A stretch of DNA of 27,255 bases from positions 1 to 27,255 of IMG/VR virus record IMGVR_UViG_3300020215_000127, one strand, 5' to 3'. The translations under genes were made by a program, and so were the position numbers. Below the pieces are notes generated by a model, which did not search any database, was not told the origin of the DNA, and saw nothing but the letters and a program-made list of their open reading frames with translations. Origin of the DNA: a virus. This document shows, in pieces, positions 1,968 to 17,900 of the stretch. Numbering within the stretch: the stretch's first letter is position 1; the number at the start of each line of letters is the position of its first letter.

Positions 1968-1970
1968 ATT

Positions 1971-2001
1971 TTGTTACGCTCGCGGACGTTTCGTGTATAA
2001 T
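1971..2001 (+). promoter_or_regulatory. Promoter before the scaffold/capsid operon
   Basis: A perfect -10 hexamer TATAAT lies at 1996-2001 with a TTGTTA -35-like hexamer at 1971-1976 (4 of 6 matches, 19-nt spacer). The alternative GTTACG at 1973 gives a 17-nt spacer but a poorer match. It lies just after the stop of the small-gene cluster and before about 220 nt of non-coding leader, so transcription would start near 2008. The -35 is weak, so help from an activator or a phage factor is possible. Confidence 0.55.
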
Positions 2002-2014
2002 GTTCGGCGTGTTT

Positions 2015-2167
2015 GACATCTGAATGGCCTCTCGGGTGGAACGGCGTTCTAGACGCGGTGCATTCCTTAATATCCATGATGCCATTCAGTTCTAACTAAA
2101 CAATCTATTAGGCATCCTTTTTTGGGGCCGATGTCCGAAGGTACTTCAACCTTCAGATGTCGGCCCC
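2015..2167 (+). promoter_or_regulatory. Structured leader RNA with mutually exclusive pairings
   Basis: In the leader between the 1996 promoter and the scaffold gene, the segment GACATCTGAATGGC (2015-2028) can pair in two ways. CTGAATGGC (2020-2028) is complementary over 9 bp to GCCATTCAG (2081-2089). GACATCTGAA (2015-2024) is complementary over 10 bp to TTCAGATGTC (2152-2161). The two pairings share 2020-2024 and exclude each other, and the second would break the 3' arm of the hairpin at 2124-2167. A small GAAC-GGC-GTTC hairpin (2039-2049) lies inside. This is the layout of an attenuator or riboswitch-type switch; no known class is recognised and no ligand is suggested. Confidence 0.5.
2124..2167 (+). 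terminator. Two-stem hairpin, terminator-like but with a short U run
   Basis: GGGGCCGA (2124-2131) pairs with TCGGCCCC (2160-2167). Within it GAAGGT (2137-2142) pairs with ACCTTC (2149-2154) around a 6-nt loop. Only TTT follows, then CGC, so intrinsic termination would be inefficient. Six T's precede it (2118-2123), which does not help on either strand. It may act as an attenuator, a pause hairpin or an mRNA-stabilising element in front of the scaffold gene. Confidence 0.45.
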
Positions 2168-2221
2168 TTTCGCATGTTCAGGCCAACCCCGCAGCGCGGG
2201 AACAACAGGAGTCCAGCGGAC

Positions 2222-2926
2222 GTGTTGAAACCCTACGACAAGCCGGAAGACATCCCCGACGAGCTGAAAGACCACTACTCGCGCCGCGAGGACGGCAAGT
2301 ATCACGCCGACATCCCCGACGAGCACCCGGCCGTCAAGCACAACGCCAAGCTTCTCAGCGAGAAGACGGCGGCCGAGACGAAGGCCAAAGACCTCGAAAC
2401 GCAGCTCGAAAGCGCGAAGGCCAGCGGCCTCCCGCGCGGGACCGTCGCCGTCCCCAAGGCCGAGCACGAACTGCTCGAAGTCGTGAAGGAAGCCGGCATC
2501 ACGAAGCCGGAAGAATTCAACACCCTCAAGACCGAGCACGCCGACTTCAAGACGAAGGCCGAAGCCGCCGAAGGTGAGAAGCACGCCGACAAGGTGGCCG
2601 AAGCGATGGGCTGGGACAAGGAGAAGACCCGCCTACTCGTGCCCGCCGTCTACGACCTGTCCCAGGTTCAGGTGCGCGACGCCAAGGGCGGAAAACAGGA
2701 GGCCGTCGCCAAGGTGAAGCAGCAGGACGGCTCTTTCATCGAAAAGCCCTTCAACGAGGTGGCTACGGGCGACGCCAAACTCGCTGCGCTGATACCAGTC
2801 CTGACGGGCCAGCAACAGCAGCGGCGCGGCAACGGGGCAGACCCGGCCCCCGCGGGTAGGGCGACGGACCTTGAAAACGATAAGTCGGCCGCCCGCAGTG
2901 CGCGGCGTGCCTACACCAGCTTTTAG
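2222..2926 (+). CDS. Capsid scaffolding protein
   Basis: The protein starts MLKPYDKPEDIPDELKDHY, a head segment common in phage scaffold-type proteins. It continues as a long charged, coiled-coil-prone region (Lys/Glu/Ala-rich, roughly residues 45-140) and ends in a basic tail (DKSAARSARRAYTSF) of the kind that binds the capsid interior. Scaffolds guide procapsid assembly and then leave. I chose GTG 2222 (234 aa) because AGGAG at 2207-2211 lies 10 nt upstream and the family-like N-terminus begins there; the in-frame ATG 2174 has no ribosome-binding site and abuts the leader hairpin. Position directly before decoration and capsid genes agrees. Confidence 0.78.
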   Translation: MLKPYDKPEDIPDELKDHYSRREDGKYHADIPDEHPAVKHNAKLLSEKTAAETKAKDLETQLESAKASGLPRGTVAVPKAEHELLEVVKEAGITKPEEFNTLKTEHADFKTKAEAAEGEKHADKVAEAMGWDKEKTRLLVPAVYDLSQVQVRDAKGGKQEAVAKVKQQDGSFIEKPFNEVATGDAKLAALIPVLTGQQQQRRGNGADPAPAGRATDLENDKSAARSARRAYTSF

Positions 2927-2935
2927 GAGAAGACT

Positions 2936-3364
2936 ATGGCAGACCTTGCTTTGGTGACGGCCGGGCAGTTGCGCGTCGAGGAGAGTCTTGAGCAAGACAC
3001 GCTCCCGGCTGGCGTCGCAATAGCCGCGGGGCAGAGCGTCAAGAAAGACGCCACGACGGGCCGGTGGATACTCGCCGACGCCTCGGCCGCGGCGACCGCC
3101 AACGCCTACGGCATGGCCGTCCGGAGCGTGCCCGCGGGGTTGCCCGTGACGGCCATCCGGCGCGGCGTCGTGGACGGCTTTGACCTGGACGACATTGACT
3201 ACGGCGACCCCGTGTACCTCTCGGACACGGCCGGGGCCGCGGCCGACGCCGCCGGCACGGTCGCGAAGGTCATCGGCGAGGTGACGGCCGTTCACTCCCA
3301 ACTGTTGGGCGACAGCCCCGACAAACTGCTGCGCGTTGACTACGCGGGCGAGGAGGTGGCCTGA
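2936..3364 (+). CDS. Capsid decoration / head-stabilisation protein
   Basis: A 142-aa, Ala/Gly/Asp-rich, beta-type protein (LPAGVAIAAGQSVKKDATTGRW, then VTAIRRGVVDGFDLDDI and YGDPVYLSDTAG). Such short beta-barrel proteins between scaffold and capsid genes are usually decoration proteins bound to the outside of the mature head (DUF2190- or gpD-like). The start has a good site (AGGAGAAGACT before ATG), and its stop overlaps the capsid start (TGATG). The call rests on gene order and composition. Confidence 0.72.
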   Translation: MADLALVTAGQLRVEESLEQDTLPAGVAIAAGQSVKKDATTGRWILADASAAATANAYGMAVRSVPAGLPVTAIRRGVVDGFDLDDIDYGDPVYLSDTAGAAADAAGTVAKVIGEVTAVHSQLLGDSPDKLLRVDYAGEEVA

Positions 3365-4434
3365 TGCCTAACATCATCCCTTACGGCTTCCGCGACCTGC
3401 GCGACCTCGCGTCCCGCCGCATCGAGGGGGAACTGATTGAAGCCGTGGACACGGCCATTCAGGAAACCGTCGAATTCCACAACCGGGAACTGGACACCCT
3501 GCTTGAACTTTTCGTGCGCCGCACGACGGAGTTCAAGGAGCGGTTTCGCTCCGCCGTCCAGGCCCGCCTTCAGCCCCTGGACGAGCACGGCCGCGCCCGC
3601 AAGATTCACGCCGGCAACCTCTACGACATCGAACTCCCCATCCAGTCGGGCGGCATCGCGGAGGGGACGACCGAGGAGATGCGGGCGCTCGAAACCGTCG
3701 GCGACGTGATGGAGCTGACGGCGACGATGACGCTCGCCGACAAGAACTGGATGCGCGACCACATCCTCGCGGCCCTGTTCGCCGCCGCGACGTGGACCTT
3801 CCCCGACCCGGTCCACGGCGACCTGACGGTGCGCCCGCTCGCGGTCGCCGCCGACGGCGTGGAGTACCTACAGTCCAACGGGCAGGCGACGACGCACACG
3901 GCGCACCGGGGGCAGGCTGACCCCATCGACGACACGCACAACCCCTTCCCGACCATCTACCGCAACCTGACTAGATTCAGCGTCAACGGCGGGCAGGTGG
4001 TGAGTCTCGTACCCACCAACCTGCTCGACGACGTGTCGGCCTTGGCCCTCTTCCGCGACCCGCCCGACGCGATGGTGCAGCCGGCGCAAGGGGAAGAGGT
4101 GCTGGTGGGCAACCTGAACGCCCGCGTGCCGGGCGAAGTCGTCGGCTACATCCGCGGGAGTCGCGTCTGGATTGTCCACTGGGACCGCCTGCCCGACAAC
4201 TACATCGTCAGCCTCGCGACCGAGGGCGAGCGCCCCGTCGCCATGCGCGAGCACCCGGTCGCCGCGTTGCAGGGCTTCCGGCGTGCGGGCAACCGCAACG
4301 ACTACCCCTACTTCGAGACGCAGTTCAAGCGCACGGCCGGCTTCGGCGCTTGGAACCGCGTCGGCGCGGACGTGCTCGAAGTCGGCGACGCCACCTACGA
4401 CGTGCCGGCGGGCTACGAATCGCCGATGCCGTAA
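3364..4434 (+). CDS. Major capsid protein
   Basis: A 356-aa protein in the canonical position after scaffold and decoration genes. The N-terminal 60 residues are helical (LIEAVDTAIQETVEFHNREL), followed by beta-rich segments and a C-terminal region with RVWIVHWDRLPDNYIVSL and FETQFKRTAGFGAWNR typical of HK97-fold or related capsid proteins. It should form the hexamers and pentamers of the head shell. No cleavable delta domain is evident, which suits a separate scaffold gene. Translation is coupled to the decoration gene by a 1-nt stop/start overlap. Fold assignment is by context and sequence style. Confidence 0.82.
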   Translation: MPNIIPYGFRDLRDLASRRIEGELIEAVDTAIQETVEFHNRELDTLLELFVRRTTEFKERFRSAVQARLQPLDEHGRARKIHAGNLYDIELPIQSGGIAEGTTEEMRALETVGDVMELTATMTLADKNWMRDHILAALFAAATWTFPDPVHGDLTVRPLAVAADGVEYLQSNGQATTHTAHRGQADPIDDTHNPFPTIYRNLTRFSVNGGQVVSLVPTNLLDDVSALALFRDPPDAMVQPAQGEEVLVGNLNARVPGEVVGYIRGSRVWIVHWDRLPDNYIVSLATEGERPVAMREHPVAALQGFRRAGNRNDYPYFETQFKRTAGFGAWNRVGADVLEVGDATYDVPAGYESPMP

Positions 4435-12061: not shown

Positions 12062-12273
12062 GTAAACGCCCCGAACTAGAACAAAGGAAGTATGGCCTTG
12101 CGCTCACGGATGGGGTGCGTGCGAGGCCATACGGCTACGTGCGGGAGGGTAAGCTGGTGATGCGCTCCGAGGGCGAGGATATAGAGTTTACGCCCGAAGA
12201 TTTGGAGCGATTGGCGGGAGAGATTAGGAAGGCGCCGAGCGTGCGCGTCTTTCGTCTCACTTCTGCCGCCTGA
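12058..12273 (+). CDS. Small protein after the tape measure, function unknown
   Basis: A 71-aa protein whose ATG overlaps the tape measure stop (ATGA), so coupled to it. Sequence MSKRPELEQRKYGLALT, then VREGKLVMRSEGEDIEFT and a helix (PEDLERLAGEIRKAPS). In many siphophages the gene after the tape measure encodes the distal tail protein, but this one is too short; its role is open. Its last 17 nt overlap the end of the convergent minus-strand gene. Confidence 0.62.
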   Translation: MSKRPELEQRKYGLALTDGVRARPYGYVREGKLVMRSEGEDIEFTPEDLERLAGEIRKAPSVRVFRLTSAA

Positions 12274-12481
12274 AAACGAATACAGACGTGATAGTGCCAT
12301 ACCCTTCCGAGCCGACCGCTACCAACTCCCAGCCCTCAGCCGCCAGTTGATTCACTTTCTTCTCTTTGGGGCTGTACTCAATCTTATATTCCCACTGGGG
12401 CGGCTTCTGAGCTTGGTAGGTGAAGCCGACGAGCAGGAGACAGACGATTATTAGCGCGGCGAGCGGGAGTTTGTTTTTCAT
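12257..12481 (-). CDS. DUF4177-like exported/membrane-anchored small protein
   Basis: A 74-aa protein with a signal or anchor segment (LPLAALIIVCLLLVGFTYQA), followed by WEYKIEY, KVNQLAAEGWELVAV and a final TITSVFVFRR strand. The WEYKxxY ... LNxLGxEGWELV pattern is the signature of DUF4177, small bacterial and phage proteins of unknown function. ATG 12481 (not the GTG 12 nt upstream) was chosen because GGTGA lies about 7 nt before it. It is the distal gene of the leftward island arm, 14 nt after the stop of the zinc-ribbon gene. Confidence 0.7.
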   Translation of the reverse strand: MKNKLPLAALIIVCLLLVGFTYQAQKPPQWEYKIEYSPKEKKVNQLAAEGWELVAVGSEGYGTITSVFVFRRQK

Positions 12482-12495
12482 AATATTGTTCACCG

Positions 12496-13242
12496 TCAGT
12501 TAGCCCCGAGCCCTTCGGAGTGAACTACTTGGTTGTGTCGGATGAGGTAGTAGGTATCCTTCAGTATCTTTCCTCCGAACGCATTTGTTGCCCGAAGGCG
12601 TAGACGAACGCCCCAATACGGCTCGCCTTTATAGTTCACTTTAGCCACCGGCGACCATTCAACATATTCGGCGCTGCCGTAGTCGTTGAGGACTTGCTTT
12701 AGATACTTGTCAACACACCGGACGCTGCCATCCCACGCGCTGCTCTCAGGCTTCGGTCCTATCAGCGCCAACTCTGCCTGTTCTTTGGCGGCCTCCTGAG
12801 CTTTCTTTTTCTCGGCGGCGAGGCGATCGCGTAGCCATTTGTCTGCCTGGGGCAACAGTTTTTGAGCATCCTTGTACTCGGGTGCGTCTTTCGGTATCTG
12901 CCTAAGATGCTCAATCCCTTCCTTCACCTTGTCGGACGCCTCGAACTTTATAAGGCGATTCCCCTCAGCTAGTTTGTCGCTGGCAGTCTGCGGCGGCGTG
13001 GGGGCGGCCGGCGCGGACGGAACAGGGGTAGGTGTTGTGAAGGCCGTCTGCCTGTCCTGTCGGCGGGCAGTGATGATGGCGACGCTCCAGACTGTGGCTA
13101 GTGCGAGGACGCCGACGATAATCAGTATGACCTTTTTCTTCTTGGAAGGTTGGGGCGGAAGGCTCGCGCCGCATCTGGCGCAGTAGGAATTATCTATCCG
13201 ACTAGGGGCACCACAGCGCGGGCACGAACGAGACACGGGCAT
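12496..13242 (-). CDS. Zinc-ribbon membrane protein with helical domain (248 aa)
   Basis: The frame extends further upstream, but ATG 13242 (MPVSRSCPRCGAPSR) gives a natural start: an N-terminal zinc ribbon with two CxxC pairs (CPRCG and CARCG, residues 7-10 and about 21-24), then a single membrane helix (VILIIVGVLALATVWSV), a Thr/Pro/Ala linker, a charged helical segment (AEGNRLIKFEASDKVKEGI), and a C-terminal beta-type domain (EYVEWSPVAKVNYKG ... RLRLRATNAFGGKIL). The zinc-ribbon plus membrane helix layout is common in bacterial chromosomal proteins, and is unusual in a phage tail region. The function is unknown. Its start is about 230 nt from the rightward ORF at 13469, with which it diverges. 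Confidence 0.72.
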   Translation of the reverse strand: MPVSRSCPRCGAPSRIDNSYCARCGASLPPQPSKKKKVILIIVGVLALATVWSVAIITARRQDRQTAFTTPTPVPSAPAAPTPPQTASDKLAEGNRLIKFEASDKVKEGIEHLRQIPKDAPEYKDAQKLLPQADKWLRDRLAAEKKKAQEAAKEQAELALIGPKPESSAWDGSVRCVDKYLKQVLNDYGSAEYVEWSPVAKVNYKGEPYWGVRLRLRATNAFGGKILKDTYYLIRHNQVVHSEGLGAN

Positions 13243-13468
13243 AAGCCGTGAGGCTCCTTTCAAGATAGTCAGTCCTGAAAAGATACACCCGCCCAAAACG
13301 AAAGGGCAAGGCCGAAGCCCCGCCCTCTCCTTCTGTCTAGCACTCACGGCATATCCGCAAGATGAAGGCCCGAAGCCTGACAGGTGGAACGGTCTGATTG
13401 TAGACCAAAGCACGCCCGAGGATGCGATTAAGATTTTAGGTAAGCCGATAAAAGAAAAGGTTGGCGAG

Positions 13469-13957
13469 TTGCGCGTTAACCCTCTTGAGTCGTGGGTTAG
13501 CAAAAAGAGGAAGGAAAAAGTTTTCAAGACGCTTGAGTATAAGAATCCAAAGGCGGGAGTAGAGAAAGTATGGCTCGCGTTCTTAGATGACAAACTCGTC
13601 TCAATCCTTATGGACTTGAAAGAGGGGACGGTTTCACCCAATGGCCTCGGAAGTATTTACGGCCTAGAATTTCAGCCTCTCATCGGACAAGCCGAGTTAG
13701 GATTCTCACCCAGAGACTACGAGCGTAACCAAGGCAAAATTTATCCCAAGAATTACCCGACCGTTTACCACCTTACCGCCGCTTCGGAGCGTAGTTTCGT
13801 CGTCGCCATGGTTGGCAATGTGCCGAGTTTTGGAGGAGTGTTTGCTAAAGGTCTTGGCGTGCCAGACAAGCCGGGCAGCTTTCCGGGGAAGGTTATGTTT
13901 ATTCAGATACTCAGCCGGACGCTTGAGAACCGGGACGGTGCAGATGTGTTGAATTAG
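13469..13957 (+). CDS. Cargo protein of unknown function, start uncertain or 5'-truncated
   Basis: The first start codon in this frame is TTG 13469, giving 162 aa, but the frame is open and looks coding well upstream: from about 13349 it reads AYPQDEGPKPDRWNG, then LIVDQSTPEDAIKILGKP, joining smoothly to the rest. No ATG, GTG or TTG exists in that upstream part, so the gene may have lost its 5' end, may be frameshifted, or may start at a rare codon. The body is soluble and mixed (VEKVWLAFLDDKLVSILMDL, PGSFPGKVMFIQIL). The final 47 nt overlap the HNH gene on the other strand. This is the only rightward gene in the left arm of the island. Confidence 0.55.
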   Translation: MRVNPLESWVSKKRKEKVFKTLEYKNPKAGVEKVWLAFLDDKLVSILMDLKEGTVSPNGLGSIYGLEFQPLIGQAELGFSPRDYERNQGKIYPKNYPTVYHLTAASERSFVVAMVGNVPSFGGVFAKGLGVPDKPGSFPGKVMFIQILSRTLENRDGADVLN

Positions 13958-14897
13958 TCAACAATAATCTAAACTCTTTCTCCGTCTTCCGACCCTTTCT
14001 AAGATTACACGATTCACAGGCGGGGGCGACATTCGCAATGAAGTTGAGGCCGCCGCGTATGATGGGCTTTCTGTGCTCCCTGTGGGCGCTCTCAAAGTCT
14101 ACTTTAGCTTTGCAGAGGTAACAACGGCCGCCCCAAAAATCATACTTGGCCTGCCACTGGCTTTCGTTGTAACCGCCCCTTGCCCCCTTTCTTCTGGCTT
14201 CAGCGTTGCGTACGCGCGTAGAAATGGCGGGAAAGTTTTGCTGGTAATATATTTGCCAGCAATCTTTGCATTGGGTGGCTAAACCGTGCCGCTGTCTTCT
14301 CGCTATCGTGAAGTCATCCCAAGACGCATAATGCAACCCTGAACCGCACCACTTTACCTTTGCGACAAGTTCAAATAAGAGAACGTAAAACCATCCGCGT
14401 AATGAGCGGCGCGCATCATCTTTCGTGTCACCCGGCCGTCTCTGCATCCAGTTAAGTATGAATTGGCAAGTTCGACATTCATTACGCAACCCCGTTGGCT
14501 TAGTCCGGTCCTTATTGAAATCGGCAACGGACATGCGCTCTTTACACGATGAGCATTGCTTTGTGCCATCAGGGTGTATGCGAGCATTACCCCCTCCATA
14601 CTTACACGGTCGGGAACAAAAGCGGGCGGTCTTAGATAGGCTCGCCTTAACACGAAAGCCTTTCTGGCAGTATTGGCATGTCAACATTGCGCCTGAAAGC
14701 TTGATACATTCTCGGCTACAGAACTTCGCGCGGCCCTGCTCATAGGGTTTGACCTTAAACTCTTTCTGGCACCCCTTGCACGTCAGACATATAGACGACT
14801 TTCTGCACGCCCTACTGCAATGCCGCGACCTCTTGGCCTCGCTAGGTGGTAGCGAGTAAGGTTTGCCGCATCCCTCACACTGTTTAGTCACTGGCAT
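13911..14897 (-). CDS. HNH endonuclease with four to five zinc-binding modules
   Basis: A 328-aa protein; ATG 14897 has AGAGG about 7 nt upstream. Three nearly identical modules C-x2-C-x16-C-x3-C occupy residues 7-31, 40-64 and 74-98 (CSRAC, CSREC, CSRPC ends). A fourth site is C115/C118/C141/C144, and a C184 ... C210/C213 segment may form a fifth. The C-terminus is an HNH nuclease: C259/C262, H272-x-E-H275, IIRGG, N289, C294/C297 and N298. HNH nucleases cut DNA as homing or packaging enzymes; the serial fingers would recognise DNA. No intron is seen around it. It is the third or fourth gene of the leftward arm. Confidence 0.8.
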   Translation of the reverse strand: MPVTKQCEGCGKPYSLPPSEAKRSRHCSRACRKSSICLTCKGCQKEFKVKPYEQGRAKFCSRECIKLSGAMLTCQYCQKGFRVKASLSKTARFCSRPCKYGGGNARIHPDGTKQCSSCKERMSVADFNKDRTKPTGLRNECRTCQFILNWMQRRPGDTKDDARRSLRGWFYVLLFELVAKVKWCGSGLHYASWDDFTIARRQRHGLATQCKDCWQIYYQQNFPAISTRVRNAEARRKGARGGYNESQWQAKYDFWGGRCYLCKAKVDFESAHREHRKPIIRGGLNFIANVAPACESCNLRKGRKTEKEFRLLLTNSTHLHRPGSQASG

Positions 14898-14908
14898 AGG
14901 TAAACCTC

Positions 14909-14929
14909 TGGCGGGGGTGAGGCCCGCCA
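14909..14929 (-). other. Hairpin between the two minus-strand HNH genes
   Basis: TGGCGGG (14909-14915) and CCCGCCA (14923-14929) form a 7-bp stem with a 7-nt loop, directly upstream of the ribosome-binding site of the larger HNH gene. No T run follows, so it is more likely to affect translation or RNA processing than to terminate. Confidence 0.4.
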
Positions 14930-14934
14930 TTCTA

Positions 14935-15267
14935 TCAGAACGCGCTCAAATCCAACTCGCCCATCAGCCTGTCACCCTTCTTGGAGTTGCAGACCGAGTG
15001 AGCCAGCTTGATGTTGTCCTCGTTATGCTCGCCCCCTTTGCTGAGCGGGATAACGTGGTCAAGACTCGCCTCGTGTATGCTCACCCACCGGTTGCACAGG
15101 TGGCACATCTGGTTGTCGCGCTCGCGGATGACGTCGAGGAAGACGAGTTGCGCGCGGACCCGGCCCGCCGCCTTGGCCCGCCTGAGCGCCTTCTGAGCGC
15201 GGTTGCGGATGCGGCGCCGGAAAAGGGTCTGTATCTTCTCGACGGGGGTCATGGGGCGGCGAGTCAT
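14935..15267 (-). CDS. HNH endonuclease (110 aa)
   Basis: The start is ATG 15267 (MTRRPMTPVEKIQ), because it overlaps the stop of the upstream gene (ATGA). The first 40 residues are very basic and helical (FRRRIRNRAQKALRRAKAAG), followed by a compact HNH core: C55-x2-C58, D70-H71-VIPLSKGG, N85, H90-x2-C93 and N94SKKGDR. All catalytic and zinc positions look intact. Such free-standing HNH enzymes near structural genes are often homing or packaging-associated nucleases; here the neighbour is another HNH gene 37 nt downstream. Confidence 0.85.
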   Translation of the reverse strand: MTRRPMTPVEKIQTLFRRRIRNRAQKALRRAKAAGRVRAQLVFLDVIRERDNQMCHLCNRWVSIHEASLDHVIPLSKGGEHNEDNIKLAHSVCNSKKGDRLMGELDLSAF

Positions 15268-15425
15268 CTGACACCCCCGATGTGGTCCGGCCACTCGTCG
15301 GGCGCGGACCCCTGCGCGCCTTCGGCTGCTCTCCGACCGTCACGCCAGATTTCAAACAATGTGATGACGAGGACGAGCAGGAGCCCGGCGAGGTAGCCGA
15401 CGAAGAAGCAGTTAACACAGTTCAT
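15264..15425 (-). CDS. Small single-pass membrane protein (53 aa)
   Basis: A short ORF begins MNCVNCFFVGYLAG and contains one strong membrane helix (GYLAGLLLVLVITLF), followed by a basic and acidic soluble tail ending PDHIGGVR. It starts inside the stop of the previous gene (ATGA, 15422-15425) and its own stop overlaps the HNH start (ATGA), so it is part of a translationally coupled operon. Both cysteines are at the N-terminus. A holin or other membrane effector is conceivable, but nothing proves it. Confidence 0.62.
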   Translation of the reverse strand: MNCVNCFFVGYLAGLLLVLVITLFEIWRDGRRAAEGAQGSAPDEWPDHIGGVR

Positions 15426-15688
15426 CGCTGGCCCCCTTTCCCGGCACGCCTGACGCGCTTAATCCGGTGCAACGGCACGCAAAATATAATGTCAACGTAG
15501 ACGCGCCAGCATTTGTCCGCCCCGTCGTACTTGTAGTCCTCGACCGTGCCGCTCATCTCCACGCCCTCTACGTCGAAGTAAATCCTGTCGCCGGGGCGGT
15601 AGATTGAGAGTGCGCCGTCTATGACGCGCAGCTTCGGCCGGTCCTTCGATTCGCCCGCCGGCTTCTTTCGCTTCGTGTTAGACTTCAT
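15422..15688 (-). CDS. Small basic beta-barrel-like protein (88 aa)
   Basis: An 88-aa protein with a basic N-terminus (MKSNTKRKKPAGESKDR) and a beta-rich core (YRPGDRIYFDVEGVEM, GTVEDYKYDGADKCWRVYV) that resembles an SH3-like or KOW-like small barrel; it ends in a very basic HRIKRVRRAGKGGQR tail. A nucleic-acid-binding role is plausible from charge, but no family is recognised. It is coupled to the downstream membrane protein gene by a 4-nt overlap. A hairpin separates it from the first gene of the arm. Confidence 0.6.
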   Translation of the reverse strand: MKSNTKRKKPAGESKDRPKLRVIDGALSIYRPGDRIYFDVEGVEMSGTVEDYKYDGADKCWRVYVDIIFCVPLHRIKRVRRAGKGGQR

Positions 15689-15729
15689 CTGTCTTTCCCT
15701 TCGTTTGAACAGGCGGGGTGGAAGGTCAA

Positions 15730-15760
15730 GGGCTTAGGGAGTCTCTAGCTTCCTAAGCCC
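15730..15760. terminator. 9-bp intergenic hairpin, possible terminator
   Basis: GGGCTTAGG (15730-15738) is perfectly complementary to CCTAAGCCC (15752-15760), with a 13-nt loop. Read rightward it is followed by GTTCCTTTTAG. Read leftward it is followed by TTGACCTT, so the T run is weak either way. It lies 8 nt after the stop of the first leftward gene and may attenuate transcription into the downstream genes. Confidence 0.45.
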
Positions 15761-15767
15761 GTTCCTT

Positions 15768-15953
15768 TTAGATGAGGAACGAGCGGACGCGCTCGCCCTT
15801 CGGCCGTTCGGGAGCCTTGACGGTGATGAGTTCGTAGGTCGTGACGAGCCACGTCGTCTCTTCGGCCTCTTCCGAGTAGTCCTCATCGAAGGCGTCCGCG
15901 AGGCTGAAATCCTGAATCCGGCTGGTGAGTTCGTTGGCGGCTGTGGCGTTCAT
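15768..15953 (-). CDS. First gene of the leftward island arm, acidic small protein (61 aa)
   Basis: ATG 15953 has AAAGGA about 9 nt upstream; an in-frame TTG six codons earlier is less likely. The 61-aa product (MNATAANELTSRIQDFS, then a DEDYSEEAEETTW acidic stretch, then YELITVKAPERPKGE) has no membrane segment or zinc motif. It is the promoter-proximal gene, a usual place for a regulator, but no HTH is seen. I looked for a RiPP-type leader and core and saw none. Confidence 0.55.
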   Translation of the reverse strand: MNATAANELTSRIQDFSLADAFDEDYSEEAEETTWLVTTYELITVKAPERPKGERVRSFLI

Positions 15954-15992
15954 CGTTTGAAGTCCTTTCAAGGAGTGTTGCCGACAGGGGAA

Positions 15993-17805: not shown

Positions 17806-17900
17806 AAAATTCGGCGCGAACTAACGCCGTTCATAACAAAACCAAGGCGCCTAAGCGTCTGCCATGTGGGGCAACAGCCTCCGTGTCAGGCGCTTTTTGT
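17803..17900 (+). ncRNA. Candidate small RNA or attenuator ending in an intrinsic terminator
   Basis: From the predicted start at about 17803 the RNA has a hairpin CGGCG/CGCCG (17812-17816 and 17825-17829) and then a terminator stem GCGCCT/AGGCGC (17847-17852 and 17888-17893), extendable by three pairs into the T run. An inner stem GGGGC/GCCTC around AACA (17868-17881) tops it. TTTTTGTCTTTT follows directly. This may simply end the HNH operon, or be an attenuator for the tail-tip operon, or a free-standing short RNA. The terminator itself is convincing. Confidence 0.5.

Follow-up and report, generated by a model that had tools for sequence, protein, structure and literature searches.

The region at positions 1968-2221 of the window, by which we mean the whole 27,255-base stretch analysed here, a tailed-phage record from IMG/VR that is itself a fragment, is best read as the promoter and 5′ leader of an operon for scaffold, cement and major capsid proteins. 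Since related phages share the layout and have clear stop signals, expression of the capsid genes is probably checked by a transcription stop until something overrides it.

The gene order in the window runs from a probable portal end, a call that rests on that order, through a few small genes to the gap at 1968-2221, which is followed on the plus strand by three capsid genes. The first gene of the operon, at 2222..2926, was called scaffold-like from a gene order matching that of relatives, and its product had no PHROG or Pfam match. The second, at 2936..3364, encodes a cement-like protein with weak Pfam cement-family matches below the cut-off, and the third, at 3364..4434, encodes the major capsid protein (phrog_3990, major head protein; E 8e-18). 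The scaffold-like gene probably starts at GTG 2222, preceded by AGGAG (2207..2211, plus strand) as a probable ribosome-binding site; an in-frame ATG at 2174 has no such site. Further downstream, a minus-strand cluster at 12257-15971, with proteins that look HNH-like by eye, breaks up the plus-strand tail genes.

The -10 element proposed in the first-pass annotation is present as TATAAT at 1996..2001, one of two occurrences of this hexamer on the plus strand of the window. The rest of the promoter is less convincing: the best candidate for a -35 element is TTGTTA at 1971..1976, a poor match with a 19-nt spacer, and a consensus promoter scan of the window listed none at 1971-2001. Counting from the -10 element, the leader would span 2008..2221 on the plus strand. 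It folds with a z of about -3.8 to -3.9 relative to shuffled sequences, and its tile ranks first of 253 in the window for folding significance. Most of this signal comes from a single hairpin at 2124..2167, hereafter T2 (z of -7.4, against -2.0 for the leader without it).

T2 is a near-perfect 18-bp hairpin of -31.8 to -33 kcal/mol, followed by UUUCGCAUG and ending at -55 from the scaffold start, and we presume it to be a promoter-proximal terminator. We scored terminators with the d'Aubenton-Carafa formula, taking D>15 as strong. The U-tract of T2 is weak (UUUCGC, three U's), and the hairpin scores D = 0.4, making it one of three sites with D>0 on the plus strand; the first-pass annotation had likewise cautioned that with three T's termination would be weak, and the values in relatives are 22-60. 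With D = 26, a terminator-like site at 17855-17893 is the strongest in the window; 29 nt separate its end from ATG 17923 of a tail-region gene. A promoter cannot fit between the two, and there, too, transcription would depend on read-through.

Upstream of T2, the arm CUGAAUGGC (2020..2028) pairs with GCCAUUCAG (2081..2089) with a probability of about 0.94 to form helix H1. A third competing pairing, H3, which the first-pass annotation had not listed, joins GAUGCC (2078..2083) to GGCAUC, which is followed by CUUUUUU (2117-2123; 3′ arm and tract together 2111..2123), all on the plus strand. H3 with this tract looks like an early weak terminator, but it is blocked by H1, being 8.4 kcal/mol worse in a transcript extending to 2123.

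Several other readings of the leader were tried and set aside. The sequence GGGUGGAACGGCG (from 2034) recalls a T-box sequence and lies about 25 nt from the putative 5′ end; a T-box was rejected because there is no room for a stem I and no Rfam match. Leader-peptide attenuation was also rejected, as the short leader frames (GTG 2036, ATG 2075) lack a ribosome-binding site. A local hairpin, GGC-A-UCC/GGGGCC at 2111-2129, which overlaps the T2 5′ arm, was considered as an analogue of the P2 stem of related prophages described below and gave p = 0.63 against shuffled sequences in a test run without L095 and L096.

We then compared the region with related loci. A search with the capsid protein found six loci with 58-62% identity. 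Upstream sequence could be compared for five loci at about this distance (L003, L004, L005, L007 and L079); they carry a conserved TTTGCAAA..GTGTATnCT directly ahead of the scaffold operon, with a promoter-like site at the place equivalent to that in the window, and lack the structured leader. In L004, L005 and L007 this region also contains a short open frame, about 50 codons long, and in L079 (3544-4584) the scaffold gene and a P-loop kinase-like protein are joined in a single open frame directly behind the promoter. Three more distant loci, L080, L081 and L082 (33-39% capsid identity), combine a promoter and a short leader with a strong terminator. A first prophage scan of named genomes with an alignment of window-type capsids found none; the loci added to the comparison were L085, L087, L088, L091 and L097, together with the Chloroflexota-genome prophages L094-L096, L103 and L105.

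Among 22 related loci, 11 have a strong terminator in the 250 nt preceding the scaffold start; the loci represent about seven lineages and are mutually related, so that these counts are not independent trials. Elsewhere, only six strong terminators were found in 189,883 bases, four of them sharing one position downstream of the capsid gene. The terminators ahead of the scaffold gene mostly end between -39 and -75, a range that includes T2, and of 12 terminator-bearing loci checked, 10 have an extended -10 element upstream of the terminator (expected, 0.016 per interval scanned). In L081, L087, L095 and L096, a second strong terminator lies about 2.2-2.3 kb after the scaffold start, behind the capsid gene, so that scaffold, cement and capsid genes are bracketed by terminators. 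L091 (2708-2764) has a tandem pair of strong terminators ahead of the scaffold gene. In L103 (about 234-279) and, on the reverse strand, L113, a direct repeat of the terminator 5′ arm AGAGCGCCC lies immediately upstream of it, and the terminator 3′ arm can therefore pair with either copy.

Taken with the position and folding of T2, this layout is consistent with a capsid operon gated by a promoter-leader-terminator module in which T2 is an incompletely efficient terminator relieved by a factor, a reading to which we give an even chance. The main functional element would then be T2, acting as a partial, promoter-proximal terminator, with 55 nt between it and the first start codon. The stable H1 (2020-2089) would form first and prevent the GAUGCC/GGCAUC-U6 hairpin, and transcription would mostly end at T2 until a phage or host factor, presumably late in infection, renders RNA polymerase resistant. 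Termination at T2, its relief and its late timing are what we infer from this arrangement. Several points speak against gating: the D of T2 falls far under that of relatives; in the closest relatives (59-61% capsid identity) the leader is short and unstructured, with no terminator; the antiterminator searches described below found no candidate gene; no homologous leader was found in which conservation could show; and the loci compared are not independent of each other.

Other roles for T2 were also considered. Capsid mRNAs whose leaders have stabilising 5′ hairpins are known in phage T7, and a near-perfect 18-bp hairpin with a poor U-tract beside the start of a highly expressed gene could likewise serve as a 5′-UTR stabiliser or RNase III-type processing site for a long-lived capsid mRNA rather than as a terminator. 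We consider this unlikely, since the hairpins of relatives at the matching position have U5-U8 tracts and are terminators by sequence. Still less probable is that T2 now has no function, being either chance structure or what is left of a terminator that has decayed; its U-tract and the missing module in the nearest relatives would fit this, but not its z, the top rank of its tile or a position matching that in relatives. We also think it very improbable that the 2008-2170 transcript is a small regulatory RNA whose read-through yields the capsid mRNA: about 160 nt are bracketed by a promoter and a terminator-like hairpin, but sequence conservation and an Rfam match are both absent.

The first-pass annotation had instead proposed a bistable leader in which GACATCTGAATGGC (2015-2028) pairs either with GCCATTCAG (2081-2089) or with TTCAGATGTC (2152-2161), the latter choice dissolving the hairpin at 2124-2167. 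The bases are all where it placed them, and so are the pairings: 10 bp between 2015-2024 and 2152-2161, 9 bp between 2020-2028 and 2081-2089, and five shared bases at 2020-2024. The alternative 5′ arm is GACAUCUGAA (2015..2024) and its complement, within the hairpin, is UUCAGAUGUC (2152..2161), both on the plus strand. Competing 10-bp and 9-bp Watson-Crick helices sharing at least five bases arose in none of 2000 dinucleotide shuffles of the leader; when G-U pairs were allowed, the duplex energy of the alternative pairing to the hairpin 3′ arm was only marginal (p = 0.058).

The energetics argue against such a switch. A two-state attenuator needs states of comparable energy, and the leader folds at -79.0 kcal/mol when free but at -62.1 kcal/mol with 2015-2024/2152-2161 enforced, a cost of 16.9 kcal/mol. 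The pair probability of this alternative is 0.000, compared with 0.99-1.00 in the lower hairpin stem. Folding by length further indicates that H1 is complete by 2090, long before the 2152-2161 strand is made. Relatives offered no support either: pairing between leader and terminator arm was no better there than in shuffled sequences, one direct-repeat case excepted, and no homologous leader was found in them or, with the patterns used, in 2.9 million viral contigs. Scans with the DNA patterns GACATCTGAATGGCC (22 loci) and CTGAATGGC-N-GCCATTCAG (49 loci) gave chance hits in which similarity stops at the motif, and a similarity search of annotated phages returned a single 24-nt match in Vibrio phages, at chance level. 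We therefore regard the mutually exclusive switch as the least probable of the readings considered. The related suggestion of a riboswitch fared no better, as Rfam gave nothing for the window leader at gathering score and its best chance matches were microRNA models.

Exclusive pairing of another kind was found in Anaerolineae-type prophages, whose leaders align in five distinct loci at the capsid operon: L081 (3795-3875), L095 (2794-2874), L087 (2771-2853), L088 (1819-1901) and L096 (2742-2822), with L094 the same as L088 here. A model built on these leaders, R1, showed that four of the prophages have another, weaker copy lying 7-9 kb upstream (L125:1508-1590 and L119:1528-1608 on the minus strand, L126:1171-1251 and L120:1522-1602). 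By gene order, this copy appears to head a lysis/packaging operon of holin-like, lysozyme-like and terminase-like genes, calls that were read from the sequence rather than from a profile search. The leader comprises a stem P1, a stem P2 (CGGA-AGAUGAGCnC-UCCG and variants, with the loop AGAUGAGC) and a terminator T; because the 5′ arm of T contains the 3′ arm of P2, P2 and T are mutually exclusive. When the stem arms were cut by hand, pairing held in 98.6% of cells, double-sided changes were seen at 10 of 18 pairs, two of them in P2, and every slid control collapsed; as the arms were chosen by eye, these figures lean towards the structure. Weak U-tracts are also present in some copies, such as GCGCAAGUGUUUU in L119 and GCGCUUUACUUUG in L125, which speaks for the gating reading of T2.

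No Rfam family matched the loci with a capsid copy of this leader, and R1 matched neither the window, up to E = 5, nor the other loci. An almost invariant 29-nt element, ACGCAAACUGAAAGGCGGAAAACUCAGGU, lies between terminator and scaffold start in L081, L087, L088, L095 and L096 and may fold into a small pseudoknot (CGC/GCG with CUGA/UCAG). It is conceivable, if somewhat doubtful, that this capsid lineage gates its late operons through leaders with exclusive antiterminator and terminator structures read by a phage factor; the Anaerolineae prophages would then show this with covariation at two late operons each, and the window leader would be a diverged example. The earlier idea of capsid-gene control by attenuation therefore stands in part: the promoter-leader-terminator order is present in about half of the related loci and one subgroup has a covarying hairpin that excludes the terminator, which supports attenuation in the broad sense, but not through the switch at 2015-2028.

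Searches for a factor covered few known antiterminator families. The Q-type families PF06530 and PF03589 were not found in ten related viral records, several of them incomplete, nor was PF03589 in the window, a fragment. NusG-type PF02357 was absent from the viral records, some of which are fragments, and a search for ANTAR (PF03861), run without a positive control, found none. To our knowledge, late-gene control is understood in few phages beyond the classical models. The terminators that several phage lineages have ahead of their scaffold gene give the search for new antitermination factors a definite starting point, and so does an apparently unnamed RNA leader that occurs twice per Anaerolineae prophage.

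Among known systems, ANTAR targets are dual hairpins of which the second is mutually exclusive with a terminator (PMC3369931). The Anaerolineae leader, though not that of the window, resembles them in having two hairpins, the second excluding the terminator; its loops, however, are of 9-10 nt (UGnAnnnGn-like and AGAUGAGCnC), and the ANTAR hexanucleotide loops with A1 and G4 were not found in it. The p7 protein of Xp10 is a phage protein that overrides intrinsic terminators (PMC6624301), and there is no leader similarity to the window. The lambdoid late promoter pR', with its leader and tR', is controlled by Q antitermination (PMC6606751). The window may resemble it, with a putative promoter, a short leader and a presumed intrinsic terminator directly before late genes, and in the two-copy Anaerolineae prophages one copy appears to head the lysis/packaging operon, as at pR'. 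The window differs in that its hairpin scores as a weak terminator and that a Q-type protein was not found in the records searched, several of them incomplete. Finally, the GafYZ-controlled gene transfer agent cluster of Caulobacter needs an antiterminator for its expression (PMC11150451). Its terminator, of 150-bp direct repeats, sits after the first gene (PMC11150451), unlike those described here, but it too has terminators inside a capsid gene cluster and thus provides a precedent for antitermination in such clusters.
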